A model generated the notes under the pieces. The model saw only the letters and a list, made by a program, of their open reading frames with translations. It did no database searches and was not told where the DNA came from. Below, in pieces: positions 5,498 through 62,099 of a stretch of DNA of 64,000 bases. Within the stretch, counting starts at the first letter, position 1. Each line of letters starts with the position of its first letter. A program made the position numbers and the translations under genes. This stretch comes from Gammaproteobacteria bacterium (GTDB taxonomy: Bacteria > Pseudomonadota > Gammaproteobacteria > Steroidobacterales > Steroidobacteraceae), in contig JANYHD010000027.1 in the NCBI GenBank assembly GCA_025359205.1, forward strand, positions 1 through 64,000, in the 5' to 3' direction.

Positions 5498-5549
5498 ATT
5501 GGCGGCCAGGGTGGGACTCGATTCGACGGCCTCGGCATCAAGAGTACCA
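5498..5549 (-). repeat. Partial duplicate of the tRNA-Met 3' half (putative attachment site)
   Basis: These 52 bases align without gaps to 13037-13088, the 3' half and flank of the intact tRNA-Met, with nine mismatches. They include an identical 14-mer (AGGGTGGGACTCGA, 5508-5521) and an identical 9-mer (CCTCGGCAT). The orientation is the same as the intact tRNA, making a direct repeat about 7.5 kb apart. No 5' half is present. This is the usual distal mark of integration into a tRNA gene, here partly decayed. Confidence 0.7.
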
Positions 5550-7120: not shown

Positions 7121-7834
7121 CTAGCCCTGAGTAGTGCGGGAAATAAGCGCGACGATGATGACCGGGCCGGTCGGCAAACCGGTCGGTGAACCCGCGCTGG
7201 GCTCGATACTGACCGCGACCTGTGCGCCGGCCAGCAGGAATTGGCGTTGCGCGGCAGTCAGTGTGCGTTTCAGGCTGCCCTGACGCGGCAGCAAGCCCAG
7301 CGAGACCGGGTTGCCTGCACCGCGTGGCAACACCCACAGCTCGTAACTTTTTGCCGCCGGGAGAGTGACTGTACCGAGGACCCGAACATTGAGTTGCGTG
7401 GATCCGGCATCACGTTCCACGCGCCACAGCGGTGCTGCATTGGCCGGCGCAAGTATAGCTACCGGCTGCCAGGCAACAGGATTCCACAGCGTTTCGCGAC
7501 CCATGAACAGTGCCGCCGCAACGAGGCTCGCCGCCGCCGCCAGCCACCAACGCCGCGCATTGCGACCTGCCGGCGCACTCCGAGGCTCGCCAGTAGATCC
7601 ATCAAGCTCATCGATGCGGCGCTGAATTGCCGGCCAGACTGTGCGCGCCGGCGACACGGCGGTCAGATCCAGAGCGAGGGGCAGCAGGCGATCTTCCCAG
7701 CGCTGCCTGGCATTGAGGGCCGGTACCAGATTTGTGCACAGTCGCTCGAAGCGCGCGCGTGCACGATAGCGCAGCACGCCGAGCGCATAGTCGGCAGCCA
7801 ATCGATCGAGCAGGTCGGGGCGATCGTAATTCAT
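7121..7834 (-). CDS. Anti-sigma factor, RskA-like
   Basis: A 237-residue membrane protein with a cytoplasmic N-terminal sigma-binding region (LAADYALGVLRYRARARFE, residues 13-31), one membrane helix (about residues 96-112) and a periplasmic RskA-type C-terminal domain (SYELWVLPRGAGNPVSLG, then a final beta region ending VIIVALISRTTQG). No zinc-binding HxxxCxxC motif is visible. Its ATG overlaps the sigma factor's TGA (ATGA), the normal arrangement for a cotranscribed sigma/anti-sigma pair. The stop codon lies inside the CTAG target of the adjacent IS. The signal released through it is unknown. Confidence 0.88.
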   Translation of the reverse strand: MNYDRPDLLDRLAADYALGVLRYRARARFERLCTNLVPALNARQRWEDRLLPLALDLTAVSPARTVWPAIQRRIDELDGSTGEPRSAPAGRNARRWWLAAAASLVAAALFMGRETLWNPVAWQPVAILAPANAAPLWRVERDAGSTQLNVRVLGTVTLPAAKSYELWVLPRGAGNPVSLGLLPRQGSLKRTLTAAQRQFLLAGAQVAVSIEPSAGSPTGLPTGPVIIVALISRTTQG

Positions 7835-8388
7835 GATTCCATGCACGATTTGAGGCTTTGCAGGCCGCGGCGCACCCAGCTCTTGACTGACCCCAGCGGC
7901 TGGCCGATCGAGAGCGCGATCTTGTCCTGTGTCAGTCCATGCTGATACGCGAGCACCAGGCATTGGCGCGGTGCCTCCGCCAATGAGTCCAGGCAACGGC
8001 GCAGCGCGGCCGCCGCGGCGCCAAATTCGCTGCGCTCGGCGGGGCCCTCTACCTGCATTTGTTCGGCGCCTGCCAGTTCGGCGATATCGAGCAGCACGGT
8101 CGGGCGCAGGGCCCGCTGCACATCGATCGCCCGGTTGCGGGCGATGGCCACCATCCACGAAAGCGCCCGCCCTTTGAGTCGGTCGAACTGCCCAGCCTGC
8201 TGCCAGATGCGAATGAAGGCGTCCTGCAGCACATCTTCGGCAGCAGCGCGCGATCCCAGGATGCGCATCAGGATACCCAGCATTTGCGGCGCGGCGCGCG
8301 TATAGAGCGCCTGCAGGGCCGCCCGGTCGTGTCGCGCACAACGCTGAAGCAGCTCCTCGAGTTCGGAATTGTCCGGGGCGATAGCCAC
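7831..8388 (-). CDS. ECF RNA polymerase sigma factor, SigK-like
   Basis: A protein of about 185 residues. Region 2 spans LEELLQRCARHDRAALQALY to EDVLQDAFIRIWQQAGQF and RALSWMVAIARNRAID. Region 4 is LAYQHGLTQDKIALSIGQP with SVKSWVRRGLQSLK as the recognition helix. GTG 8388 puts region 2 at the N-terminus as in relatives and has GAGGAG just upstream, though with a short gap; the frame stays open to 8523, so the start is not certain. It is divergent from the DUF4331 operon, which carries two matching promoter-like motifs and is the likely regulon. Confidence 0.88.
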   Translation of the reverse strand: MAIAPDNSELEELLQRCARHDRAALQALYTRAAPQMLGILMRILGSRAAAEDVLQDAFIRIWQQAGQFDRLKGRALSWMVAIARNRAIDVQRALRPTVLLDIAELAGAEQMQVEGPAERSEFGAAAAALRRCLDSLAEAPRQCLVLAYQHGLTQDKIALSIGQPLGSVKSWVRRGLQSLKSCMES

Positions 8389-8518
8389 GTTCTCCTCATG
8401 CTCTCCATACGGCGGGTCACCCGGCTTGGACGCGCCCGGAATACGCCCGGGCCAGAGGATATAGCGGGGCCACCGGGAAGTCCGCCTTTTTTGGCCCCGA
8501 ATAAATTTATCCCGCGGC

Positions 8519-8547
8519 TGCATCCACCCTGTCGCCGCACTCGTATA
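8519..8547 (+). promoter_or_regulatory. Candidate ECF promoter, upstream copy
   Basis: TGCATCCAC (ending 8527), then 14 bases, then CGTATA (8542-8547). The element and spacing recur at 8598-8626. A CATCC-type -35 with a CGT-type -10 fits ECF promoters in general; the match to this sigma factor is inferred. Confidence 0.5.
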
Positions 8548-8597
8548 TGCACTTCCTCACTGGCCCCAAGAGTGGAGCGGAGATTGATTCTCGGCTG

Positions 8598-8626
8598 TGC
8601 ATCCACAGACGATTGCCCAACGTTCT
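8598..8626 (+). promoter_or_regulatory. Candidate ECF promoter, gene-proximal copy
   Basis: TGCATCCAC (ending 8606), then 14 bases, then CGTTCT (8621-8626), about 55 bases before the DUF4331 start. It shares GGCTG...CATCCAC-N14-CGT with the copy 79 bp upstream. Confidence 0.55.
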
Positions 8627-8679
8627 TATGTTGCAGATCTCCCGCAACCCGTTTTACCCGTCACTAAGGACACAGCTAT

Positions 8680-10230
8680 ATGAAACTTCCCACACCGCCA
8701 TGGGCAATTATGGCCTGCCTCACCGCATTGAGTGCGGTTGGCACAGTCCAGGCCTCCAGCCACCGTGAGGCGCCGTTCATCACGCAACACCCCAAGGTCG
8801 ATGCCAGTGACTTCTATATGTTTCGCAGCTATGAGACTGGCCGCTCGGGGTTCGTCACGCTGATCGCCAACTACCAACCGCTTCAGGACGCCTACGGCGG
8901 ACCGAACTACTTCTTCATGGACCCCAAGGCACTCTACGAGATTCACGTCGACAACAATGGCGATGCCGCTGAAGATCTCACCTTCCAGTTCCGCTTCCAG
9001 GACAGGACCAGCGGGCTGGCGGTGACAGCCGGCGGGAAATCGATTCCCGTGCCACTGACCAACATCGGCCCGGTAAGTGCCGGTGACATGAGCGCCCAGA
9101 ATGTGGCCGAGACCTACACGCTGACCCTCGTCCGGGGCAACCGACGCCATGGCATGGCGCAATCGATCGTCGATGCGAGCAGCGGCAGCAGCACTTTTGC
9201 CAAACCACTGGACAACATCGGCGCCAAATCCATACCCAACTATGCGAGCTATGCCGACAGCTTCATCCATAGCATCGCGATTCCCGGATGTAGCACCCCT
9301 GGCAAGGTGTTCGTGGGTCAGCGGATGGACGGCTTCGTCGTCAATCTGGGCGAGACCTTCGATCTGGTCAATATCAAATATCCGGCCGAGGAGCTGGCAC
9401 CCGCGGGCGTCAACGCCCGCAATAGCGAACCCAACACTCTGGCAGACAAGAACGTCACTTCACTGGCTCTCGAAATCCCGATTGCCTGCCTGACGGCCGG
9501 ATCGGACCCGGTCATCGGCGCCTGGACGACGGCCAGCCTGCGCCAGGCCCGGGTGATCAACTCGACGCCGGAAAGTGACCGCAGCGTTGCCAGTGTCGGC
9601 GCCAAGGCCAACCCAGCCGATGCGCTGGTCGCCGGTGGCGCGTGGGTGCAGGTGTCGCGGCTTGGCGCACCGTTGGTCAACGAAGTTGTCATTGGTCTGC
9701 CTGACAAGGATCGCTTCAATGGCTCCAGTCCAAGAAATGATGCGCAGTTTGCCGACTACGTGACCAATCCTTCGTTGCCGATACTCCTGCAGGCACTGTT
9801 TGGCGGCGCGGGTGTGCTGGCGCCCAATGTCTACCCACGCGCGGATCTGGTCGCGGTGTTCTTGACCGGGGTGGCGGGACTGAATCAGCCGGCGAAAGTA
9901 ACGCCCGCCGAGATGCTGCGCCTGAATACCAGCACAGCGGTGATGCCGGCCGGCTCGCAGAAGGACCTGGGTGTCATCGCGGGTGATGTGGCCGGATTCC
10001 CCAACGGCCGACGGCCGATCGATGATGTCGTCGACATCGCGCTGCGCGCTGCCATGGGCGTGCTGCTCGCGCCGTTTGACGGCAGCGCCATGGATCCGGA
10101 CCCGGCTTCGGACGGCTCCCGCCAGCTGCACTACACCGATGGTGCCGAGCCGAACCCGGCCAACTACCTGGCCGTGTTTCCCTACCTGACCACGCCGTTG
10201 GCGGGTTCACCCAACAGCGCTACGCCCTGA
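8680..10230 (+). CDS. DUF4331 family exported protein
   Basis: A 516-residue protein with a signal peptide (cleavage near residue 25, after TVQA). The mature N-terminus SSHREAPFITQHPKVDASDF with YMFRSYE is the DUF4331 signature. The rest is beta-rich and includes GGAWVQVSRLGAPLVNEVVIGLPDKDRFN and a C-terminal FPNGRRPIDDVVDIALRA segment. No catalytic residues are known for the family and no function is established. It is the first gene of an operon with a lipoprotein, a TPR protein and a HupE-like permease, opposite an ECF sigma/anti-sigma pair, so an envelope or metal-stress role is possible but unproven. Confidence 0.9.
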   Translation: MKLPTPPWAIMACLTALSAVGTVQASSHREAPFITQHPKVDASDFYMFRSYETGRSGFVTLIANYQPLQDAYGGPNYFFMDPKALYEIHVDNNGDAAEDLTFQFRFQDRTSGLAVTAGGKSIPVPLTNIGPVSAGDMSAQNVAETYTLTLVRGNRRHGMAQSIVDASSGSSTFAKPLDNIGAKSIPNYASYADSFIHSIAIPGCSTPGKVFVGQRMDGFVVNLGETFDLVNIKYPAEELAPAGVNARNSEPNTLADKNVTSLALEIPIACLTAGSDPVIGAWTTASLRQARVINSTPESDRSVASVGAKANPADALVAGGAWVQVSRLGAPLVNEVVIGLPDKDRFNGSSPRNDAQFADYVTNPSLPILLQALFGGAGVLAPNVYPRADLVAVFLTGVAGLNQPAKVTPAEMLRLNTSTAVMPAGSQKDLGVIAGDVAGFPNGRRPIDDVVDIALRAAMGVLLAPFDGSAMDPDPASDGSRQLHYTDGAEPNPANYLAVFPYLTTPLAGSPNSATP

Positions 10231-10244
10231 AGGAGCACAGAGTC

Positions 10245-10496
10245 ATGTCTTACAAAGCCATATTGGCCGTAGCGGGGCTCGCGGGGCTGGCGGCGCTGCT
10301 GCCGGCCTGTGGGGGCAGTGATGCCGCTAAGCCCACGGCGCTGGCGCCGACCCAGATCAAAATGGAAACGTCAGTCGGAATATTGGCCATGGCGAAGGAT
10401 GCTTCGGAGACCAGCGATCCGTTGATTGTGGGCACCGACGCGATCGCGCCAGCCGATCTCGACGACGAGACCTCTGATCCGATTCCGGTCGGCTAG
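10245..10496 (+). CDS. Small lipoprotein with repeated ETSDP motif
   Basis: An 83-residue protein with a lipoprotein signal peptide and lipobox LLPAC (Cys near residue 24), giving a mature chain of about 60 residues. The mature part is acidic and low in structure. It contains ETSDPLIVG and, 20 residues later, ETSDPIPVG, an imperfect internal repeat. AAGGAG is placed well for ATG 10245. It lies 14 bp after the DUF4331 gene and 4 bp before the TPR gene. I recognise no family. It could be a membrane-anchored partner of the DUF4331 protein. Confidence 0.8.
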   Translation: MSYKAILAVAGLAGLAALLPACGGSDAAKPTALAPTQIKMETSVGILAMAKDASETSDPLIVGTDAIAPADLDDETSDPIPVG

Positions 10497-10500
10497 TGCC

Positions 10501-11658
10501 GTGCAAAATCATGCCTGGAACTGGTGCCGCCTGATGATCGTCGCCGCAGCCGGAGTGCTCAACACTCCGGCTGCGGCTCGGCCCTACATACCCGTGAGCG
10601 ACGCCCAGGTGCTGGCCGAACTGCCCGCCGGTGCGCAGCACGCGGAACTCGGCGCGCGCCGGATCGCGCGCGAGCGCATTGATGTGGCGCTGCCCTTGGC
10701 GCAGTTCTATATCAGCCGGGCACGTGCAAGCGGCGATCTGCGATTCCTGGGATATGCCGAAGCGGTGCTGGTGTCCTGGGTACGAGTGGCCACACCGGAT
10801 CCGGCGGCTCTGGTGCTGCAAGCGACGATTCAGCAGAGTCGCCACGAATTTGAGCAGGCCCTGAACACTCTGGACCGATCCATCGCTGCGCGCCGCAATG
10901 ATCCGCAGGCCTGGCTGACGCGAGCGACGGTGCTGCGCGTGCTGGGTCGATATGCGGAAGCGGCAATGTCCTGCGAGCAGTTGGCCCACTACGCCGATCC
11001 CGCTGTCGGCATGATCTGCCAGCAAAGCGTGCTCGGCCTGCACGGTAATCTCGCGTCGGCATACGACACGCTGAGTCGCATGTCGAGCCAGACCTTAACG
11101 GAGCCGGAGCGCGCCTGGCGCGCCTCCGAGCTTGGTGAGATGGCGGTCCGGTTGGGTCAGGAAGCCGATGCCGAGCGCTGGTTTAAAATGGATCTCGCCC
11201 TGAGCCCGCACGACTTCTACGTCCGCGCCGCCTACGCAGACCTGTTGCTGCGCCAGCGACGGCCCCAGGAAGCGCTGACTTTGCTGCGTGACCAAGAAAG
11301 CGTCGAACCCCTGCTGCTGCGGATGGCCATAGCCCAGAGGCAATTGCATGATCCGGGTCTGGCCCGCAGCCGTGCACTCCTGGCGGCAGCATTCGAAGCG
11401 GAGGGTTTGCGCGGCGAAGCTATCCATCGTCGCGAGCAGGCGCGATATCTGCTGGAAGTCGAAGCGCGCCCACGGCAGTCTCTGGAGGTGGCGCTGCTCA
11501 ACTGGGCAGTGCAACGTGAACCGGACGACGCGCTGGTGTTGGTCAATGCCGCGCGCGCCGCCGGCAGTCCGCAGCGGGCCCAGCCGGTGCTCGATTACCT
11601 GCGGGTGCAGGGTCTGCGCGATGCACGGCTGTACACCGATCGTGCACGGCAATCATGA
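10501..11658 (+). CDS. Exported TPR-repeat protein
   Basis: A 385-residue protein with a short signal peptide (MIVAAAGVLNTPAAA region) and helical repeats throughout, such as QATIQQSRHEFEQALNTLDR, then RATVLRVLGRYAEAAMSC and a later DLLLRQRRPQEALTLL. I chose GTG 10501, four bases after the lipoprotein stop, because it gives a complete signal peptide; ATG 10534 is the alternative. TPR proteins are scaffolds, and the partner here is likely another product of the operon. The stop overlaps the permease start (ATGA), showing translational coupling. Confidence 0.82.
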   Translation: MQNHAWNWCRLMIVAAAGVLNTPAAARPYIPVSDAQVLAELPAGAQHAELGARRIARERIDVALPLAQFYISRARASGDLRFLGYAEAVLVSWVRVATPDPAALVLQATIQQSRHEFEQALNTLDRSIAARRNDPQAWLTRATVLRVLGRYAEAAMSCEQLAHYADPAVGMICQQSVLGLHGNLASAYDTLSRMSSQTLTEPERAWRASELGEMAVRLGQEADAERWFKMDLALSPHDFYVRAAYADLLLRQRRPQEALTLLRDQESVEPLLLRMAIAQRQLHDPGLARSRALLAAAFEAEGLRGEAIHRREQARYLLEVEARPRQSLEVALLNWAVQREPDDALVLVNAARAAGSPQRAQPVLDYLRVQGLRDARLYTDRARQS

Positions 11659-12767
11659 AATATTTTCTGCGATGCCTGATCGTATCGGGCCTGGGCGCCC
11701 TGGAGTGCGCCCAGGCGCACGTGGCCAGCAACAGCTTCCTGCAGCTGCAGGTTGAGGGCCCCTCAATCGTCGGTTCGCTGGAACTCGCCGTACGTGACGC
11801 GGAATTGGCGGTCGGCCTCGACCTGAATCGAGACGGCCGGGTGAGCTGGGGCGAAGTGCGTGCCGCGCAGCCCGCGTTGTCGCTCTACCTCCAACAGCAT
11901 TTGCATCTGGCAGCGCACGACGGCAACTGCACGCTTGAGTTCGGGGCGCTGAAGATCAATGAGCGTGTCGACGGCAACTACCTCTGGCAGCCGTTGTCCG
12001 CCACCTGTCCCAGCGCGCTGGACCAGCTGAACATCGACTACCGGCTGTTGGACAACGAAGATCCTTCGCACCGCGGGCTGCTGACCCTGGCGGCATTCGG
12101 AGCGACCCAGTCCGCAGTGCTGGGCGGGCCGCGCGTCACGCAGAGCTATGATCTCGTTCATCCCTCGGCCTGGTCTGCGTTCATGGAATACCTGCAGGCG
12201 GGCATCTGGCACATCTGGAGTGGCATCGACCATCTGTTGTTCCTGCTCTCTTTGCTGCTACCCGCGGTACTGATACGTCGTGAGCGGCGCTGGCAGGCCG
12301 TCGCCCAGGCGTTGCCGGCGCTGGTGAATATTCTCAAGGTGGTGACTGCGTTCACGCTGGCCCACTCCATCACGCTGTCGCTGGCGGCCTTTGATGTCAT
12401 ACGTCTTCCCGGCCGGCTCACTGAATCCATGATCGCGGCTTCCATCATAATGGCGGCGCTGAACAATGTGTTCCCCCTGATCACGGAAGCTCGCTGGCGG
12501 GTGGCCTTTGCGTTCGGACTGCTGCACGGTTTTGGATTTGCATCCGTGCTTGCCGGCATGGGTTTGCCCCGTGGCGCGCGCCTGGTCTCACTGGTGGGCT
12601 TCAACCTCGGCGTCGAGACCGGGCAGCTGGCGGTCGTACTTGCCGTGATGCCCATCGCGTACTGGCTGCGTCGTACCACTTTTTATCGTCGCGGCATCAT
12701 GCCCTGGGGATCGACCGTGATTGCGGCGCTCGCGATGGTGTGGTTTGTGCAGCGGGCACTTGGGTAG
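11655..12767 (+). CDS. HupE/UreJ-like membrane protein with EF-hand-like loop
   Basis: A 370-residue protein with a signal peptide, a periplasmic domain of about 160 residues, then six or seven membrane helices. The membrane part carries HupE/UreJ_2 motifs: GIWHIWSGIDHLLFLLSLLL, FTLAHSITLSLAAF and FGLLHGFGFASVLAGMGL, with conserved His and Asp that could hold a metal. HupE-family proteins are linked to nickel or cobalt transport. The periplasmic domain has DLNRDGRVSWGE (about residues 56-67), a good EF-hand calcium loop. Metal sensing or transport is therefore plausible; the ion is unknown. It is the last gene of the operon. Confidence 0.85.
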   Translation: MKYFLRCLIVSGLGALECAQAHVASNSFLQLQVEGPSIVGSLELAVRDAELAVGLDLNRDGRVSWGEVRAAQPALSLYLQQHLHLAAHDGNCTLEFGALKINERVDGNYLWQPLSATCPSALDQLNIDYRLLDNEDPSHRGLLTLAAFGATQSAVLGGPRVTQSYDLVHPSAWSAFMEYLQAGIWHIWSGIDHLLFLLSLLLPAVLIRRERRWQAVAQALPALVNILKVVTAFTLAHSITLSLAAFDVIRLPGRLTESMIAASIIMAALNNVFPLITEARWRVAFAFGLLHGFGFASVLAGMGLPRGARLVSLVGFNLGVETGQLAVVLAVMPIAYWLRRTTFYRRGIMPWGSTVIAALAMVWFVQRALG

Positions 12768-12781
12768 CCTGGCACGGGCCC

Positions 12782-13048
12782 GTGCACGCTCTGAAGCACA
12801 CTTTCGGGCATCGGCTGCGCGCCGCGAGCATCGGGTTCGAAGATCGAAAAGTCCTACTCGGCCACAAGTCCGATCACGTCACCACGCAATATTCCGCACC
12901 AGACATCAGCAACCTGATCGACGCTGCGGAACGCGTTTGCGAGCTAGAGTCCCGCAAAAGTCCCGCAATGGCATTGGTGCGCCCTGTCAGAGAGCGCGCA
13001 AGTGTTTGTGACCGTTGGCGTTTGCAGGTTGATTTGATTGGTGGCTAG
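12782..13048 (+). pseudogene. Tyrosine recombinase (integrase) C-terminal remnant
   Basis: This fragment encodes only the catalytic C-terminus of a phage-type integrase: LKHTFGHRLRAA (HxxR box), LLGHKSDHVTTQYS (LGH and the Tyr nucleophile) and a tail NLIDAAERVCE. The N-terminal arm-binding and core domains and the first catalytic Arg are missing, because the HupE gene lies directly upstream. The frame runs into the 3' end of the tRNA-Met gene, as is usual for an integrase next to its attachment site. Confidence 0.85.
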
Positions 13049-13115
13049 GGTGGGACTCGAACCCACGACCTCGGCATTATGAGTGCCACGCTCTAACCAG
13101 CTGAGCTACCTAGCC
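13039..13115 (-). tRNA. tRNA-Met (CAT), elongator
   Basis: A 77-base cloverleaf with CCA encoded. The acceptor GGCTAGG pairs with CCTAGCC, the anticodon loop is CTCATAA (anticodon CAT), and the T-arm is GTGGG-TTCGAGT-CCCAC. Its 3' half is duplicated at 5498-5549 and an integrase remnant abuts the 3' end, so it looks like the integration target of a genomic island. The first acceptor pair is G-C, which argues for the elongator and not the initiator. Confidence 0.96.
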
Positions 13116-53570: not shown

Positions 53571-56312
53571 TCAGTGAGTCCCGCTATCCGTGGTAATCGG
53601 GACGGTCTGTGTCGGCACGTTCCAGCCGCTTACTTCAACGACCGGCATCGCCGTCTCCGTGGCGTTGATATGCGCGGACACGGTGCGCGATTCGCCGGGC
53701 CACAGACTGACGTCATTGTCGCTCCACAGGACGGGAACCACGGGTTCGCCGTGCCCGGACGGCTTGATCGACAGGTGCTGGAAAAAGGCCATGGCTTTAG
53801 ACGATGAGGGCACCATCAAGGTAATCGTGATGACCTGCTCACCGCTCTCGCGACGCATCGTCGCCAGCACTTCGCTCGGCACGGTAGGCATGGCTTGCAA
53901 CGCCGTCAGGTTCGCGTAGCGCGTCACCGGAGTGAGGTACCAGTTGGAGTTTGCCCAGTCGAGCTCGTCGGTCTGGGTCGCTAGCCAATAGACATTGCGG
54001 CTGATCGCACTGCCGTCTGCCGCCGCGAGCTCGAGCTCGATAAAATAAGTAGCTGACAAGTCTGCCACTGCCGGCACCACTGCCACTGCCCGCGCGACGT
54101 TGCCGGGCAAGTCGACGCCCTGCAGGCGACGCTCAAAAGCCACGCTGCCATCCAGGTTGCGTACGCGTATCAGCGCCCGCAACCCGTGCTCGGTGGCGAG
54201 GGTCTGATTGACGAGCATGATCTCGCGCGTATCGTAGGAGTACTGGATGTGCAGCGGTTCGTTGGCGATCCTAGCGCCGAAGTAGGCCCCGGCAGGATTG
54301 AGGAAATAGTCATACAAATGCCAGTGCAACGAAGGCCAGGCGTTGTTGAGCATCCAGTAGATGAGTCCGGTCGACGGGTTGGCCCGATCCTGATGCGCGC
54401 TATGCGCCTCAAATTGCGCCCGGACGTTGTCGTAGTTGTCGAGCTGCGACTTGGCAACGTAGTCCTCGAGGCTCTTGGGTGGGCCGTAGCGCTTGGCCAG
54501 CGAAGCGCCATACGCGGGCAAGTTGGCAAAGACCGACCAGGCGGCGGAAGCGTGATACTGCCGTGCCTCTGGAAATTTCCACAATGCTTCCAGCTCTTGC
54601 GGCGTAAGCATGCGGACAAGATCTTCCAACGGCGGAATGGACGCGCCGGCGCTGAGTTCAGAGTTGAATCCGAACGCACCGCCCAATTTATCCGCATACC
54701 AATAGGCTGGCGGAACCCACGCATAGGGTCCCTCCATTTTCATGCCGGACGGGCCAGTGTCTGCGGTCGCCTGCGGAACCGCCGCGGCGATGATCGGCAA
54801 CGACCAGCCTTCGGCACGCAAGGTGTCGGTGTACAGCTTCGCGACCGGTGCTGGCGGTGCGTGGTCGCTACCAATCAGAAATCCGATAACGGACGGGTGA
54901 TTGCGTAGCAGCCGAGCCTCGCTCGCCATGGACTTTTCGGCCACACTAAAGTCAGCAGTACTCCACGGTTCACCACCGGTCTTGGCTGCCGACTCCCACT
55001 TGTCGCAGCACTCCCAGCCAGCCAGTACCATCAGGCCAGCACGATCGGCGAGTTCGTAGAAACGCTGGTCCTCGAGCTTCCCCTCACTGCGCAGGGTATT
55101 GAGGCCAAGGTTGACGATGTACCTGAACTCGGCCTCTGTGCGCTTGGGATCCGCGCGCAGGAACATGTCGGGCGCCCAGCCTGCCCCACGAATCAATACC
55201 GGCTGTCCGTTGACGACGAACTGGCGATAACCCTGTGGCGTGAGGTGGGAGCTCACGCTTCGAATGCCAAAAACAGCGCTGGCCTGGTCCGAGGGCGATC
55301 CATCCACAGTGGCGGTCAGCTGCAATGAGTAGAGCGGATGCGCGCCCATCGCGACCGGCCACCAGACCTTGGGATGTTTGAGATCGAGACCCGGATCGCT
55401 CTGGGGAGTAAACGATACCGTCTGTGCCTGACCGGGAGCAAGATGGATCTGTCGGCGCAGCAACACGTTTGCCACGACGCCCGCAATCGTCACGTCGTGC
55501 GCGGCAGCATCGAGGTTCCGTGCCTCCACTTTTGCAGTCAGCGCAGCGCGCGCGAGATCGGGCAGTGACAGCGTTGAGCTCACCTGCGGAAAGCGCAGCT
55601 GCACCGGTCCGGTTCGCAGGATCTCGACGCCCCGCCACGGACCCATGTTGTTGTCCGGTGGTGTCGGATTCCAATCGACCCAACCTATCGACAGGTTTCT
55701 CCTTGGGTCACCCGGATGAACTTGCAAGCTGACAATGTTGCTGCCCGTCTGTACCCAGGGTGTCACGTCAAATTCATTGACGGGATAGGCGCCAGCTACA
55801 ACTGTCTGGTCGGCGATCAGGTGCCCGTTCAACCACACGTCCGCGCTGGGGATCATGCCGTTGATGCGTAGCAACGTTCGTGAGCCCGGCGCGCCTGTGG
55901 CCAGCGTAAACTCACTGCGATACCACCAGGAGGTCACGAACGGCGTGCCGCTGGCTTCGGGATCTTCCACCGCACGCAGATTGTCGCCGTAGAACACCTT
56001 GTCGTACTTGCCGCTCTCGAGCAGTCCCGCCATCACGGTCGCACGGCCACTCACGCTGTACCAATCGTGAGTCGAAAAGCCGGTGGCGGATATTTCGGCA
56101 CCGCTCTCTTGCGCCGTGGCGCTGGACTGCATCTGCCAATGCTCGATCGCAGTGACTGTGCCGCCACCCGCACCGACCGTTGTGGGTGCGTATGCGCTTT
56201 GGGCGCTGGCAAGCGCCGCGCCGGCCAGTGCCGCCAGGGTAGCCAGTACCTTGATCACCGATTGGCCGGGCTTGTGCAGCGCGTAACTTGCCCCGGTGGC
56301 ACGGCTCACCAT
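53571..56312 (-). CDS. Glycoside hydrolase family 2, exo-beta-D-glucosaminidase-like
   Basis: A 913-residue exported enzyme with a signal peptide (VLATLAALAGAALASAQS). Its order is sugar-binding beta-sandwich (WWYRSEFTL, DVWLNGHLIADQT), Ig-like domain, TIM barrel and C-terminal beta domains. The active-site pair resembles CsxA exochitosanase: Asp483 in FLIGSDHAPP as acid and Glu552 in FGFNSELSAG as nucleophile, 69 residues apart (CsxA D469/E541). It would release glucosamine from chitosan ends. ATG 56312 overlaps the receptor's stop by 7 bp, so receptor and enzyme are coupled. Other GH2 specificities such as mannosidase cannot be ruled out. Confidence 0.87.
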   Translation of the reverse strand: MVSRATGASYALHKPGQSVIKVLATLAALAGAALASAQSAYAPTTVGAGGGTVTAIEHWQMQSSATAQESGAEISATGFSTHDWYSVSGRATVMAGLLESGKYDKVFYGDNLRAVEDPEASGTPFVTSWWYRSEFTLATGAPGSRTLLRINGMIPSADVWLNGHLIADQTVVAGAYPVNEFDVTPWVQTGSNIVSLQVHPGDPRRNLSIGWVDWNPTPPDNNMGPWRGVEILRTGPVQLRFPQVSSTLSLPDLARAALTAKVEARNLDAAAHDVTIAGVVANVLLRRQIHLAPGQAQTVSFTPQSDPGLDLKHPKVWWPVAMGAHPLYSLQLTATVDGSPSDQASAVFGIRSVSSHLTPQGYRQFVVNGQPVLIRGAGWAPDMFLRADPKRTEAEFRYIVNLGLNTLRSEGKLEDQRFYELADRAGLMVLAGWECCDKWESAAKTGGEPWSTADFSVAEKSMASEARLLRNHPSVIGFLIGSDHAPPAPVAKLYTDTLRAEGWSLPIIAAAVPQATADTGPSGMKMEGPYAWVPPAYWYADKLGGAFGFNSELSAGASIPPLEDLVRMLTPQELEALWKFPEARQYHASAAWSVFANLPAYGASLAKRYGPPKSLEDYVAKSQLDNYDNVRAQFEAHSAHQDRANPSTGLIYWMLNNAWPSLHWHLYDYFLNPAGAYFGARIANEPLHIQYSYDTREIMLVNQTLATEHGLRALIRVRNLDGSVAFERRLQGVDLPGNVARAVAVVPAVADLSATYFIELELAAADGSAISRNVYWLATQTDELDWANSNWYLTPVTRYANLTALQAMPTVPSEVLATMRRESGEQVITITLMVPSSSKAMAFFQHLSIKPSGHGEPVVPVLWSDNDVSLWPGESRTVSAHINATETAMPVVEVSGWNVPTQTVPITTDSGTH

Positions 56313-59300
56313 TGCCCGCGAACGCCCGCCGAAAACATGCGCTCGGAGAAATTTGAGTGCGCCGGTTGGTCGGGCCACACGAGGTAGTAGCGCTGGTATT
56401 CGTTCGTGAGGTTGGTCGCGTTCACAAAAAGCTCCGCATACTTGTTGACCTTGAAGGCCACCGAGGCGTCGAGGTACTTTTGCGGCGCCTCGTACAATTC
56501 CAGGCCAGCAATGCCCCCCACGGTATCCACTGCCGCCCGCTTCGAACGATAGTTGTAGGCGAGGCGAGCCTGGAATTGCTTGTCCTGATACCACAGGATG
56601 AAATTTCCCGAATCGGTCGAGTTGTCCTGGAACGGAATCTCGTTCCCGGCCAGATCCGTTTCCCCGGTGTGACTGGGCGCATAGGTCACGTTGAATTCCA
56701 TGCCGGTATTGGCCAGGAGTCCAGGCAGGAACGTGAAGCCTTGTCGATAGTCGAACTCGGCGCCCTGGATGCTGTTGCCTGAGCCTTGCAACGGCGCCAC
56801 GATCTGGATGCAACGATTTGGATTGCGGACCACGCCGTCCTCATCGGGCAGGCCGCAAGCTGGCGTATTGCCATTGGTGATGAAGCTCTGCACATTGATC
56901 CGGAACAGCTCAAGGTTGATCAGGCTGGTCGGATTGAGGTAGTACTCGAGCGAGGCACCGAAGTTCGTGGACCGCCATGGATTGAGATTGGGATTGCCGG
57001 ACGAGGTGCCCTGCGAGACCTGGAATTGCAGGCCCTGTGGCGTCGAGTACGACGAGTAGTTGAGCGTCAGGCCTCCGCCCCACTGGCTCAAGGATAGCGG
57101 CATCATGTTCTTGGAGAAAGCGAGGCGCATCGTCAGCTTGGGCGTCATGTTCAGCGAAAAATTGGCCGCGGGCAGCACATCGGTGTAGCTGCGCCGCGTG
57201 ACTTCCGTGCCCGTGACCGCGGCCTCCGTGCCGTATTGACCTGGGTCGCCGACGTTGTCCTGGGTAATCCGCAGGCTGGTGCGTATCAACCGCACACCCA
57301 CATTGGCGCTGTACGACATGTCACCAAGATCGCCCTTGAAGTCGGTCTGCAAATAGCCCGAGGACTCCGTGGTCGAGACTGCCCAGGTGACGCCCGGCGC
57401 CGTCTGCCTCCGGGAACCTGGCAGAAGCGACTTCCAGAACGCTTCAGGATCGTCCAGGGCGCGTGGATCGATGCCCCAGAAGTTGATGCCCGAGCCCAGA
57501 AGATTGGTGTACGGCCGCCAGTTGTTGGCGAGCGGCGCCGGGGTCTGCGACAGCGGCTGCGCCGAGAACGGCCCGGCGCGGAAGAACCCCTCGGCATTTC
57601 CGGCAGTACACCATGTTCCACTTTCGTTGCCACCCAGGACGACGTCGGCTGCAACGTAGCGCACGAGGCATCCGTTCGGGTCACTGGCTCCCATGCCGGC
57701 GTAGACCGGGGCAACCAGGGTGAAGCCATCGTTGGTGGCGGTGCGGATGCTGTTGCGCACGCCAAAATCGACATGGAAGCCATCGTTGACTTTGTAATGC
57801 CCGTCGAATCGCAGTGCCGTGATCGCGGTTTGCCGGTCGTAGTCATCGGCGGATTCCAGCGTCTTCATCGCCCAGCTGTTGGGATCGGCAAAGGCGCTGG
57901 CGAGCGATGAGGGCATGCTGATGAGGAGATTGCGGCCGGTGAAGTCGGCCGTGATCGGCACCGTATTCTGGGGAATGCCGTTGGCGTTGAATACGCGATC
58001 ACCGCCAAGTTGGGCGGGATAGACGAAGGTGCCACAGGGCAGGCCGGTGCGGGAGTCGCCCCACTGGCAGCCGTCGGCATTCGAGATGTTGGTGTCAGTC
58101 TCTATGTAGGACTGCTTTGCGGTTTCGCGAATCGCACGCACGCCTCCCTTGAATTTGCCGCCATTGTCGTAATCAAGCTGGACATTGAAATTCTGTGCGG
58201 TGGACTGGGTGCGGATGACTGACGAGTAGGATTCCACATCGCCCGGCCACTTCTGGTAAACCTGCGTGGTATAGATCTGCGAGCCCGCCCAATTCGGGTC
58301 CGGCGGCGGCGTGTTGTACTGGCCGAGCGCGGTGGTGCCGGTGTTTCGCGACTGCAACGGCACGAAGGTCGCGCCCTGCCAGTTGGCGGAATCGATCTGT
58401 ACACCTACGTTGCGTTCGTGCTGATCCTGATGTGCGTAAAAAGCATCGCTGGTCAACTTGAACCCGCTCCCGAAGTCCATCTGGAACGACGCGTTGGCTG
58501 CCTGGCGCTTGCGCTGCGTCGTAATATCAGACAGAAAGATGTCCTGACTACCGAGGAATACGCCGTTAGACTGGCCATCACCGTTCACATCAACACTGCC
58601 GTCCGGGTTCTGCACGATCCGCGAGGGCAAGGGCGCGCCGTTCCAGGCTCCGAGAAACCCGTTGTAGGCTGCTGCGCTGGCCGCGTTCTCGCCATCGAGA
58701 ACGGCGCCATATTGATCGAGTCCTTCCGTGGACTTGCTGCGCGTGGTGTCGGAGAAATCGCCGGATACCTGCAGGCCCCAACGACCATCCGCGTTGTAGG
58801 AAAACAGGCCGCTGAGCTCGGGGCCAGTTCTGCGAGCAGTGCTGCCCCGTTCCCCGTCGGCGGTGTAGCTATAGGTAAAACCGTGCGGCAAGTCCCAGGG
58901 CCGATAGGTGTGCAGATTGAGCGCACCGCTGATGCCGGTTTCGGTCTGCGCGGCTGTGGGTGACTTGATGACATCCACTTGATTGAACAGCGTGGCGGGT
59001 AGCGTCGTGAAATCGGGCTGCTGCGAGTCGATCTGGTCCGGCGAGATGAATACTTCGCCGTTCAGCAAGGTGCCGACCTCCGGCAAGCCGCGTACGCTCA
59101 CCGACGTGCCTACCCCCGCGTCCCGATTGATCTGCACGCCCGTGATGCGTTGCAAGGCATCGGTGATCGTCACGTCGGGCAACTGGCCGATGCTCTCGGC
59201 CGAAATGCTGTCCTGAATGCTCGGCGCCTCGCGTTTCAGTTGGATGGCGCGAATTTGCGACTGGCGTACACCCGTGACAATGATCTCCTCCAACTCATCC

Positions 59301-59527
59301 GCACGCTTGACTCCCGCATCGGAGCCGGCGCCGCTGGTGCCGAGCCTGGCTTTCTTGACTTCGGGCGATGGTGTCAGCGGTGTGCCCTGCTGCGCAGGAT
59401 CCTGCGCCCCGGCGTTGTCTGCAGCGGCATTGGCGTGCTCTGATGCCTTGGCCGACGCCGCCGCGGCGGCGAGCAACACCATGGATACTGCAACTGACAG
59501 CGGGTGATTGCGATGTAGGTTTGCCAC
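56306..59527 (-). CDS. TonB-dependent outer-membrane receptor
   Basis: A 1,073-residue receptor of the large carbohydrate-type family seen in Xanthomonadales and Caulobacterales. It has a signal peptide (VAVSMVLLAAAAASAKAS), a linker with TonB-box-like EEIIVTGVRQSQIRA, the plug (SIGQLPDVTITDALQRITGV, then NQVDVIKSPTAAQTETGISG) and a 22-strand barrel ending in RMFSAGVRGQW with final aromatic residue. GTG 59527 has AAGAGG upstream. Substrate is inferred from the overlapping GH2 glucosaminidase-like gene: chito- or glucosamine oligosaccharides. Confidence 0.94.
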   Translation of the reverse strand: MANLHRNHPLSVAVSMVLLAAAAASAKASEHANAAADNAGAQDPAQQGTPLTPSPEVKKARLGTSGAGSDAGVKRADELEEIIVTGVRQSQIRAIQLKREAPSIQDSISAESIGQLPDVTITDALQRITGVQINRDAGVGTSVSVRGLPEVGTLLNGEVFISPDQIDSQQPDFTTLPATLFNQVDVIKSPTAAQTETGISGALNLHTYRPWDLPHGFTYSYTADGERGSTARRTGPELSGLFSYNADGRWGLQVSGDFSDTTRSKSTEGLDQYGAVLDGENAASAAAYNGFLGAWNGAPLPSRIVQNPDGSVDVNGDGQSNGVFLGSQDIFLSDITTQRKRQAANASFQMDFGSGFKLTSDAFYAHQDQHERNVGVQIDSANWQGATFVPLQSRNTGTTALGQYNTPPPDPNWAGSQIYTTQVYQKWPGDVESYSSVIRTQSTAQNFNVQLDYDNGGKFKGGVRAIRETAKQSYIETDTNISNADGCQWGDSRTGLPCGTFVYPAQLGGDRVFNANGIPQNTVPITADFTGRNLLISMPSSLASAFADPNSWAMKTLESADDYDRQTAITALRFDGHYKVNDGFHVDFGVRNSIRTATNDGFTLVAPVYAGMGASDPNGCLVRYVAADVVLGGNESGTWCTAGNAEGFFRAGPFSAQPLSQTPAPLANNWRPYTNLLGSGINFWGIDPRALDDPEAFWKSLLPGSRRQTAPGVTWAVSTTESSGYLQTDFKGDLGDMSYSANVGVRLIRTSLRITQDNVGDPGQYGTEAAVTGTEVTRRSYTDVLPAANFSLNMTPKLTMRLAFSKNMMPLSLSQWGGGLTLNYSSYSTPQGLQFQVSQGTSSGNPNLNPWRSTNFGASLEYYLNPTSLINLELFRINVQSFITNGNTPACGLPDEDGVVRNPNRCIQIVAPLQGSGNSIQGAEFDYRQGFTFLPGLLANTGMEFNVTYAPSHTGETDLAGNEIPFQDNSTDSGNFILWYQDKQFQARLAYNYRSKRAAVDTVGGIAGLELYEAPQKYLDASVAFKVNKYAELFVNATNLTNEYQRYYLVWPDQPAHSNFSERMFSAGVRGQW

Positions 59528-59836
59528 GGGATATGCCTCTTAGGTTGGATAATTTCCGAATTTTTGAAGTCCAGCGGTGCGCGTACCGCTCACACCGAAA
59601 ATGCCGCTTGCGCCAGTTCGCAGGGGCCATCGCGTGGATCACCAGCGGTGAAATTGCACAGGTCAGGAATGCCATTCAGCATCGACGTGGAAAATCTGGC
59701 GAACAACGGCCCAGCGCACGAATCGGCTTGAATCGCGAATTCGCCATCCGCCGCCCCACCTCGCGTCGTCGTGTCCTTCGCGTGTTGACCCCTACGACCG
59801 AGCCTACTCATCGGTGCCCCTAATCGCTGTCTATTT

Positions 59837-59855
59837 ATTCGGTCTATTGACGAAT
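59837..59855. promoter_or_regulatory. Inverted repeat ATTCG-N9-CGAAT
   Basis: ATTCG (59837-59841) and CGAAT (59851-59855) form a 19-bp dyad in the AT-rich part of the divergent region. It could be an operator facing the receptor operon. No footprint can be inferred beyond symmetry and place. Confidence 0.4.
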
Positions 59856-59890
59856 TAATTTACCATGCATGCCGTCTTCGATCAAGCACA

Positions 59891-59920
59891 GGTTGATTCA
59901 ACCGCCAATGCGGCTATGAT
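59891..59920 (+). promoter_or_regulatory. Promoter of the ROK operon with overlapping 13-bp palindrome
   Basis: TTGATT (59893-59898), 16 bp, TATGAT (59915-59920) make a good sigma70-type promoter. GGTTGA-T-TCAACC (59891-59903) is a perfect palindrome over the -35 box, a likely operator for autoregulation by the ROK repressor. The start site would be close to the ribosome site GGAGAGG (59926-59932), leaving a very short leader. Confidence 0.5.
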
Positions 59921-59943
59921 TGTTCGGAGAGGTAACGAATCAA

Positions 59944-61170
59944 ATGACTATGCCTGCACCACCCCCACCGGTAACGAGCGTGACCCGCCAGTTGTCGCGG
60001 CGGAGCGTTTTTGAAGCCCTCCTGCACCGCAGCCCCATCTCGCGGGCGGACCTTGCCAAGGTAACCGGTCTGTCAAAACAGACGATGTCGGAAGTCGTCG
60101 ACGCGTTTGGACAGCAGGGGCTGGTTCGCCAGGTGGGGCGCACCAGCGGCAATGTCGGGCGGACCGCCGTGTTGTACGAATTGAGCCCTGAAGGCGGTCA
60201 CGTGCTGGGCATCGATTTGGGAGCCCGACGATTGACGGTAGCCCTCGCCGATATCGCAGGCAGAGTTCTCGCTGAAGCTGACGAACCCACCGACAGCCGC
60301 GGCGGCGCCTGGGCGCTCGACCAGATTGCCCGGCTCTCTGACCGTCTGGCGCGTGACAATCACACACACCCCAGCCGAATTCGCTCCATCGTGCTGGCCA
60401 CCCCCGGGGTGGTAAACCCCAAGAGCGGCGCCATCGAGATGGCTCCCAACATCACGGGCCTCGGTCATCTCAATGTCGTAGGCCTGCTGGGTGAGAAACT
60501 CGGCAGTCCCGTCGTCATTGAAAATGACATCAATCTCGCGCTGCTCGGGGAGATATGGCACGGCTGCGCGCAAAACGTTGCCAATGTGGCGTTCCTCGCG
60601 CTCGGCAGCGGCATCGGACTGGGACTCTTTACCAACGGCCAGCTGGTTCGCGGCGAGAACGGCGCCGCCGGTGAGATCGGCTATCTGCCGATCGGTGGCG
60701 ATCCGCTGCAAGCCGCGTCCCGCCTGCAGGGCTGCCTCGAGTACCAGGTGGGCGCGACGGGTGTCTTGCGACGATATCGCGAGGCCGGCGGTTCCGAAGT
60801 TGAGTCGGTAATGCAGGTGTTTGAACGGGCGCAGGTGGGCGATCCGATTGCCGCACAAGTGATTGAGGAGACGGCGCGGCTGATTGGTCTGGCGGCTGCG
60901 GCGGTCATTGCAATGGTGGATCCGCAACTGATCGTTCTGGGCGGCTCGGTCGGTGCCCGTCCGGATTTTGCGGACCAGGTCGCGCGCGTGCTATTGCAAC
61001 TCTCGCCGCGGCCGGTGGAGATTCGCACCAGCACCCTCGGCAGGCGAGCAGGCGTCGTTGGCGCATTGTCCGTCGCCTTGAGCCGTCTCCATGATGCATT
61101 CTTCGGGGTCGCGGAGCTGGCGGCGGCGCTACCACTTCCGCCGCCCGCGCATCGTAGTGCACGTCAATGA
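59944..61170 (+). CDS. ROK-family transcriptional regulator
   Basis: A 408-residue protein: an N-terminal winged helix (residues 10-75, SRADLAKVTGLSKQTMSEVV as recognition helices) and a ROK domain. The usual phosphate motif DxGxTK is changed to GIDLGARRL, and the zinc site is reduced to a lone Cys (LQGCLEY) with Tyr in place of the His, so it is probably a sugar-sensing repressor without kinase activity. ATG 59944 follows GGAGAGG. Its stop overlaps the next ROK gene (ATGA). Likely ligand is an amino sugar or its phosphate. Confidence 0.9.
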   Translation: MTMPAPPPPVTSVTRQLSRRSVFEALLHRSPISRADLAKVTGLSKQTMSEVVDAFGQQGLVRQVGRTSGNVGRTAVLYELSPEGGHVLGIDLGARRLTVALADIAGRVLAEADEPTDSRGGAWALDQIARLSDRLARDNHTHPSRIRSIVLATPGVVNPKSGAIEMAPNITGLGHLNVVGLLGEKLGSPVVIENDINLALLGEIWHGCAQNVANVAFLALGSGIGLGLFTNGQLVRGENGAAGEIGYLPIGGDPLQAASRLQGCLEYQVGATGVLRRYREAGGSEVESVMQVFERAQVGDPIAAQVIEETARLIGLAAAAVIAMVDPQLIVLGGSVGARPDFADQVARVLLQLSPRPVEIRTSTLGRRAGVVGALSVALSRLHDAFFGVAELAAALPLPPPAHRSARQ

Positions 61171-62099
61171 CGCGCGAAGCTGCCTATTGTTTTGCTGCAG
61201 ACCTGGGCGGCACAAAGCTCGCCGCAGCGATGGCCGATGCACGTGGTCGGATCGTGGCTGAGTTGACCGAACCCACCGACCAACGCGGCGCGGCGCACGT
61301 GGCCGAACAGATTGCCGCCTGCGCCGACAAGCTGGCGCAAGCCGTCGGCATCGAAGTCACGCAGGCACGTCATGTCATGGTGGGACTTCCTGGAGCGATC
61401 GATCCTCGCACGGGCCGCGTTTCCCTGACTCCAAACATTGCGGGACTGGAGGACTTCGATATCCTCGGCTTTCTGCGTGGCCGCTTCGGTCCGGATGTTG
61501 CGATCGAGAACGATGTGAACCTCTCGATGCTCGGCGAGCATGCGCTCGGGTGCGCCAGTCGGTGCCGCAACGCGGCGTTCTTAGCGCTCGGAACAGGTGT
61601 GGGGCTCGGCCTGCTCATCGATGACAAGCTGTTTCGGGGGGCGTGTGGCTCGGCGGGTGAAATCGCGGACCTGCCCATCGGGCGCGATCCGACTACGCAG
61701 ATGCTCTCTGCCAGCGGCACCTTCGAACTCGAAGTGGGCTCACTCGCCATCGTGAATCGGTACCGGCGCCAGGGTGGAACCGCGGCCGCCACGGTGCGCG
61801 ATATATTCAGGCTGCTCGAGCAAGGAGACGAAGTGGCGGCCTCGGTCCTCGATACGACGGCGCGCTGGGTGGCCCTCGCTGTAGTGTCGCTGCAATCGCT
61901 CCTCGATCTCGAACTCGTCGTGTTCGGTGGCAGCATCGGCGTGCGTCCCGAACTGTATGAGCGGGTGCGACGGACACTTCCCGCCCTCTTTTCACGACCC
62001 ATCGCAATTGCGCCCAGCCGGCTTGGCGATCGCGCGGGACTCATCGGCGCCGCGTGGGCAGCAGCGCAGACCCTGCGTCAGAACCTTGAGCCCGCATAG
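61167..62099 (+). CDS. ROK-family sugar kinase-like protein
   Basis: A 310-residue ROK protein with no DNA-binding domain. It keeps the ATP-binding AADLGGTKLAAAMAD and the catalytic-Asp segment VAIENDVNLSML, plus FLALGTGVGLGLLID. The Cys-rich zinc motif of most ROK kinases is missing: the region reads LPIGRDPTTQMLSASGTFE with no Cys. It overlaps the regulator gene by 4 bp and resembles it, so it may have come from duplication. Best guess is a GlcNAc or glucosamine kinase. Confidence 0.85.
   Translation: MTREAAYCFAADLGGTKLAAAMADARGRIVAELTEPTDQRGAAHVAEQIAACADKLAQAVGIEVTQARHVMVGLPGAIDPRTGRVSLTPNIAGLEDFDILGFLRGRFGPDVAIENDVNLSMLGEHALGCASRCRNAAFLALGTGVGLGLLIDDKLFRGACGSAGEIADLPIGRDPTTQMLSASGTFELEVGSLAIVNRYRRQGGTAAATVRDIFRLLEQGDEVAASVLDTTARWVALAVVSLQSLLDLELVVFGGSIGVRPELYERVRRTLPALFSRPIAIAPSRLGDRAGLIGAAWAAAQTLRQNLEPA

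Follow-up and report, generated by a model that had tools for sequence, protein, structure and literature searches.

Permeases of the HupE/UreJ-2 family have recently been described as 'anglerases', in which a metal-capturing, immunoglobulin-like domain with an N-terminal histidine (Ang-1) is joined to a PF13795 permease domain (Franco Cairo et al. 2025, PMC12537917; crystal structure PDB 9GCE). The main text of that report treats the protein alone, gives as its neighbours proteins of unknown function, DUF4198, indigoidine-synthase-like proteins and PfkB kinases, and contains no mention of DUF4331 or of a sigma factor. Here we describe a related permease in a stretch of 64,000 nucleotides (the window) of a Steroidobacteraceae genome (GCA_025359205.1, contig JANYHD010000027.1, positions 1–64,000). 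It is encoded by the last gene of a conserved, apparently sigma-controlled operon for a DUF4331 protein, a small lipoprotein, a tetratricopeptide repeat (TPR) protein and the permease. Pfam matches and open reading frames (ORFs) in the window place this operon divergent from a gene pair for an extracytoplasmic function (ECF) sigma factor and its anti-sigma factor. The permease class has been known since 2025; the operon, its promoter, the DUF4331 N-terminus and the name DUF4331 itself were not found in the open literature searched, most subscription journals being outside its reach, and DUF4331 is without an assigned role.

We consider it reasonably probable that the locus encodes a mobile envelope system under sigma control whose task is to capture a transition metal, with Cu(II) as the likeliest ion and Ni(II) as a possible one; which metal it is, which way it is transported, what triggers the sigma factor and what the lipoprotein and TPR protein do are the parts that we infer. 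A sigma-controlled metal system was also the central suggestion of the initial annotation, made from the window sequence alone, and it was largely borne out by the promoter, the conservation of the cassette and the Ang-1 fold.

The DUF4331 protein was scanned against 84,980 prokaryote genomes, which gave 296 encoding stretches, and the best 80 loci were retained, chiefly from Gammaproteobacteria and Burkholderiales with a few bins carrying other labels. Profiles made from the window proteins were searched against these loci to count neighbours; promoter, cassette and N-terminal residues were all read from sequence comparison. Where 3 kb or more of sequence was available downstream of DUF4331 (70 loci), the lipoprotein gene was present in 56, directly downstream of DUF4331, the TPR gene in 56 and the HupE gene in 51, with all three together on the same strand in 43. 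HupE without TPR was found at the cassette position in none of the 70. Median gaps were 25 bases between the DUF4331 and lipoprotein genes and 14 bases between the TPR and HupE genes; in the window, 14 bases separate DUF4331 from the lipoprotein gene and the TPR stop overlaps the HupE start as ATGA at 11655.

In 44 of the 62 loci with sufficient flank, an ECF sigma gene lay no more than 2.5 kb upstream or 4.7 kb downstream, being upstream and divergent (20), upstream on the same strand (5), downstream on the same strand (11) or downstream and opposed (8). That the sigma gene stays with the cassette despite rearrangement speaks for a functional link. Judged by these sequence counts, co-occurrence of the cassette genes is far above chance, and the recurrent partnership of DUF4331 with TPR, HupE and ECF genes posited in the initial annotation was upheld by the neighbourhood survey that it had suggested. 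The distribution of DUF4331 was patchy, with the gene present in 15 of 147 genomes of the order.

Two Streptomyces plasmids (L106, 9623–12621; L108, 695–5419) carried the order DUF4331, TPR, NicO-family transporter. The transporter has a histidine directly after an ASA or AAA cleavage pattern, an EF-hand-like loop (DTDHDGKVSADE) and a His-rich loop; with its N-terminal histidine and EF-hand-like loop, this NicO partner repeats the cassette architecture with a different membrane domain. Fasciclin-domain genes were observed near these cassettes. In three Acinetobacter loci (L022, L030 and L034), DUF4331, lipoprotein and TPR genes were followed by a TonB receptor gene, with no HupE gene and no close promoter match. 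On plasmids of Jannaschia (L102) and Sulfitobacter (L104), DUF4331 was found without TPR or HupE inside a type II secretion gene cluster, a setting that raises the question of whether DUF4331 is released from the cell in these hosts.

The pattern GCATCC-N15-18-CGT was found upstream of DUF4331 in 38 of 80 loci, compared with 0–3 in dinucleotide-preserving shuffles, and the spacer was exactly 16 in 66 of 84 core matches over the loci. A weight matrix was trained on 39 sites and applied with the threshold set at 11.4 bits, a level that 2 % of shuffles exceed. It placed the promoter TG(C/A)ATCC-N16-CGTA in forward orientation before DUF4331 in 56 of 81 loci, the form TGAATCC being seen in Massilia, among others; because training sites occupy 36 of the 56, only about 20 loci were newly added by the matrix. 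When gene classes were compared at 16 bits, the promoter preceded sigma genes in 11 of 55 cases and TonB receptor genes in 5 of 15, compared with 2 of 521 other genes of the same loci. At L018, where TPR-HupE lies on the opposite strand from DUF4331, this unit has its own promoter copy. Both window promoters before DUF4331 are also present in L002, as is the weak copy at the sigma gene (11.1 bits, just under the 11.4-bit threshold). Control of the operon by the sigma factor, as suggested in the initial annotation, is well supported by this comparison because the shared promoter precedes DUF4331, sigma genes, TonB receptors and the split TPR-HupE unit.

A stricter promoter pattern had six matches in the 2.98-Mb genome, two of which were the operon's own promoters; two further matches that were inspected (L110 and L115) lay within or across ORFs and had no clear promoter position. 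Prediction of a genome-wide regulon from the promoter alone was rejected, the core pattern being at background (18 matches versus 24 in the control). The canonical ECF −35 element GGAAC was likewise discarded, as it was not enriched upstream of DUF4331 (18 of 80 loci versus 13–26 in shuffles), and generic sigma-70 and terminator scans gave nothing useful above shuffles. At L048 (12261–13118), a promoter-like site (18 bits) was observed just upstream of a gene for a right-handed beta-helix protein with a weak match to NosD, a periplasmic copper protein.

The closest described counterpart of the regulator is the SigK-RskA pair of Mycobacterium tuberculosis (ECF18/19). SigK is the closest solved relative of the window sigma factor (PDB 4NQW, E 6.6e-27), with both SigK cysteines aligned, and the anti-sigma factor has an N-terminal sigma-binding region, one transmembrane helix and a periplasmic RskA_C domain. 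The window sigma differs in falling below the NCBIfam SigK cut-off (137.6 versus 226 bits), in its target genes and in having ChrR-type partners at some loci. The earlier label 'SigK/RskA-like' thus holds for the RskA_C domain and the nearest solved structure, but not at the level of the NCBIfam family.

About 34 of 80 loci have an RskA-type gene in the vicinity of DUF4331, and a ChrR-type cupin anti-sigma factor takes its place in ten (L004, L042, L046, L048, L049, L053, L057, L060, L067 and L074). Nine of the ten ChrR-partnered sigma factors form a separate clade (98/97 support) without the cysteine pair, and within this clade L046 and L048 retain the same promoter. Two regulator types therefore appear to be coupled to one cassette. 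A redox trigger through the conserved SigK-type cysteine pair, which is kept in 94 % of ECF18 and 56 % of ECF19 members (PMC7509140), is possible for the sigma factor. It could further be argued that the whole cassette serves a redox or oxidative envelope response, in which oxidants trigger the sigma factor, the cassette protects or repairs the envelope, and metal binding is incidental or limits copper-driven damage. The aligned cysteines would fit such a response, as would the separate ChrR-type clade, since that family is linked in other bacteria to oxidative or singlet-oxygen responses (PMC5507510, PMC11832516). However, across the genera neither the cassette nor the genes close to it included a recurring peroxidase, reductase or repair gene, and the membrane partner belongs to a metal-permease family in Proteobacteria and Actinobacteria alike, so that we regard a redox response as unlikely.

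In an AlphaFold2 model of the HupE protein (predicted local distance difference test, pLDDT, 90), the N-terminal domain matched the Ang-1 domain crystal structure with copper (9GCE; Foldseek E 5.5e-6). VIA-align superposed model residues 22..168 on chain residues 1..157 (Z 12.7, 133 residues, root-mean-square deviation 2.9), so that residue 22 of the model falls on residue 1 of 9GCE. The match is by fold only, as PDB sequence searches did not list 9GCE, and the zinc-binding periplasmic proteins ZrgA and PA4063 have the same fold. Residue 22 is a histidine that follows an AxA cleavage pattern, is the predicted mature residue 1 and was present in 57 of 57 homologues. The corresponding N-terminal histidine of RbAng-1a has reported dissociation constants of 74 nM for Cu2+ and 220 nM for Ni2+ (PMC12537917), and the metal-binding permease proposed in the initial annotation is supported by the shared fold together with this binding in a relative.

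In the aligned membrane part, H186, D192, H193 (HX5DH), H237, H291 and E321 were invariant, as were cysteines 92 and 118 of the outer domain. The nickel permease HupE of Rhizobium leguminosarum similarly has HX5DH in a membrane helix. The window protein differs from it in lying under the cut-off of the classical family PF04955 (20.3 versus 23 bits), in lacking FHGX[AV]HGXE and in coming from a genome without a hydrogenase. The description 'HupE/UreJ-like' accordingly stands for the PF13795 match and not for PF04955.

The predicted periplasmic N-terminal domain also holds an EF-hand-like loop, DLNRDGRVSWGE, at residues 56–67. Its pattern was found in 53 of 58 HupE proteins, D56, D60 and E67 are conserved at 90 % or more, and in the model it is flanked by helices 46–53 and 65–70. 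The loop noted in the initial annotation is therefore real and conserved, but its assignment there as a sensor or main metal site is not supported, the metal site of the relative being the N-terminal histidine; it is probably a structural Ca2+ site. A calcium system, in which Ca2+ sensing or binding by the loop would be the means by which the permease or complex handles a divalent ion, would account for the conserved loop and its flanking helices. We consider this highly improbable, as strict conservation falls on His22 and the transmembrane His, Asp and Glu residues, typical of transition-metal permeases, and the N-terminal histidine is where Cu was bound in the crystallised relative (PMC12537917).

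A second candidate metal site was found at the N-terminus of DUF4331. Its signal peptide ends in VQA, giving the predicted mature N-terminus SSHREAP, and 80 of the 81 sequences are predicted to begin, once mature, with Ser-Ser-His or a close variant of it. At the cleavage site, 78 of 80 have alanine at position −1, and nearly all have a small residue at −3. S27, H28, E30 and P32 were invariant in 56 aligned sequences, and SSHREAP is kept in homologues from Actinobacteria and Bacteroidota (Streptomyces, Miltoncostaea and Adhaeribacter), the cleavage pattern being indistinct in the last. An X-X-His sequence at a free N-terminus is the amino-terminal Cu(II)- and Ni(II)-binding (ATCUN) motif, and we infer a predicted ATCUN-type Cu/Ni site at the mature N-terminus of DUF4331. 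Like the permease, CopC-type and other histidine-brace copper proteins have a metal site built on the mature N-terminal histidine; they differ in domain, and DUF4331 would use a histidine at position 3 rather than His1. No convincing match for the DUF4331 fold was obtained in the PDB (best Z 7.7, weak), nor by sequence profile. In the lipoprotein, Cys22 was invariant in 38 homologues and two ETSDP-type repeats are present.

These features can be assembled into a route for the metal. Judging by their families, RskA would retain the sigma factor at the membrane, to be set free by an envelope or redox signal. The sigma factor would then transcribe the operon, its own gene at a number of loci and a TonB receptor gene in some hosts from TG(C/A)ATCC-N16-CGTA, a step well supported by comparative sequence. 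Exported DUF4331, once cleaved as predicted, would act as an ATCUN-type chelator, with the lipoprotein and TPR protein perhaps anchoring or scaffolding it. The ion would be taken by the N-terminal histidine of Ang-1, for which the fold and residue come from this analysis and Cu binding from the relative, and may pass through the His/Asp/Glu-lined membrane domain of HupE.

Copper is preferred over nickel because the published Ang-1 favours Cu and because the window's genome yielded no NiFe hydrogenase and has three heme-copper-oxidase-type subunit I genes; for urease, it gave only a weak partial model match (26 bits over 54 positions). The argument from genome content is a weak one, coming from a single genome and being compatible with nickel or cobalt as well. 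DUF4198-type genes, of a family reported to bind nickel (PMC12537917), were found near DUF4331 at two loci.

Because the promoter also precedes TonB receptor genes, we think uptake more likely than export; these receptor genes were found in about 14 loci, and every NCBIfam match that might indicate a receptor substrate was far under cut-off. Under export or detoxification, excess metal would induce the sigma factor, DUF4331 and the lipoprotein would buffer metal outside the inner membrane, and the HupE/NicO-type protein would extrude it. The NicO-family partner in Streptomyces, with its His-rich loop, has the layout of RcnA-type exporters, and the ATCUN and N-terminal histidine sites would also suit sequestration. 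The promoter on a third of the TonB receptor genes and the receptors directly downstream elsewhere fit import instead, and metal uptake is proposed for the published relative (PMC12537917); export is thus a rather improbable account of the cassette.

Several observations weigh against metal capture and uptake as set out above. The direction of transport is uncertain because a TonB receptor occurs in a minority of loci and no close homologue of it was found in the window's genome. Some loci hold DUF4331 without TPR or HupE, and so DUF4331 may be able to act with other partners. HX5DH and FHGX[AV]HGXE are the classical HupE motif definitions, and the second is absent from the HupE alignment, with LLHGFGFAS in its place. 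Cleavage of the DUF4331 signal peptide is read from the AxA pattern, and the first 27 residues of its AlphaFold2 model (pLDDT 81) are unreliable. E30 and P32 are invariant as well as Ser-Ser-His, which suggests a role of the motif that goes further than that of a plain ATCUN site.

More tentatively, DUF4331 may represent a new class of secreted copper-capturing protein whose Ser-Ser-His passes Cu(II) to the Ang-1 permease, with capture outside the inner membrane or the cell, a TonB receptor sharing the promoter in some hosts, and parallel forms in Proteobacteria and Actinobacteria; the route for acquiring copper would then be protein-based and under sigma control. If DUF4331 binds Cu(II) and the sigma factor answers copper, the cassette would be a regulated copper (or nickel) acquisition route shared by many environmental Proteobacteria and paralleled in Actinobacteria, and would show where some of the anglerase permeases work. 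Association of DUF4331 with a permease family that binds copper and with a sigma factor of its own would give it a testable role.

In the window, the cassette looks like part of a decayed integrative tRNA-Met island of about 7.5 kb, as read from its flanking sequence, because direct repeats, one of them in tRNA-Met, bracket it together with an integrase remnant. The 52-base direct repeat covers the 3′ part of tRNA-Met, and a genome search with the left flank placed it at 5498–5549 and 13037–13088 only. The copies enclose an IS1182 transposase, the complete sigma and DUF4331 cassette and, beside the tRNA, the integrase remnant, which matches only the C-terminal end of the Phage_integrase profile.

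The coordinates are collected in Table 1. All six genes named in the initial annotation were found in their places by Pfam and ORF reading; that annotation had omitted the predicted Ser-Ser-His of DUF4331, the TonB receptors, the ChrR-type anti-sigma factors and the island context. For the sigma gene, the longest-ORF start at 8523 was dropped in favour of the GTG start, which has a good ribosome-binding site. NCBIfam gave no convincing model for the DUF4331, lipoprotein or HupE protein of the window.

Table 1. Positions of the cassette, its candidate promoters and the flanking island features in the window
Feature	Position	Strand	Evidence or remark
RskA-type anti-sigma factor	7121..7834	-	Pfam PF10099, 62.4 bits vs cut-off 29.4, E 7e-17
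ECF sigma factor, SigK-like	7831..8388	-	Pfam sigma-70 r2 and r4; GTG start 8388 after AGGAG
Candidate sigma-gene promoter, weak	8401..8437	-	GCGTCC-N16-CGTAT, one mismatch, 11.1 bits
ECF promoter 1 of operon	8519..8545	+	TGCATCC-N16-CGTA
ECF promoter 2 of operon	8598..8624	+	TGCATCC-N16-CGTT, 81 bp upstream of DUF4331
DUF4331 secreted protein	8680..10230	+	Pfam PF14224, 494 bits vs cut-off 27, full length, E 5e-148
Small lipoprotein	10245..10496	+	83-aa precursor, lipobox LPAC, 62 mature residues
Exported TPR protein	GTG 10501 (or ATG 10534) to 11658	+	Pfam TPR models
Ang-1 + HupE/UreJ-2 permease	11655..12767	+	Pfam PF13795 (HupE_UreJ_2), 159.6 bits vs cut-off 24.5, E 6e-47
Left att-like direct repeat	5498..5549		83 % identical to the 13037–13088 copy
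C-terminal remnant of tyrosine integrase	12740..13048	+	Pfam Phage_integrase, sub-threshold, 15.5 bits, E 0.015
Right att-like direct repeat	13037..13088		Within 3′ part of tRNA-Met (13039–13115, -)

Elsewhere in the window, at 53571–62099, a possible glycan-use locus was recognized by eye only: one large ORF resembles an exported glycosidase, another a TonB receptor, and two are ROK-family-like.

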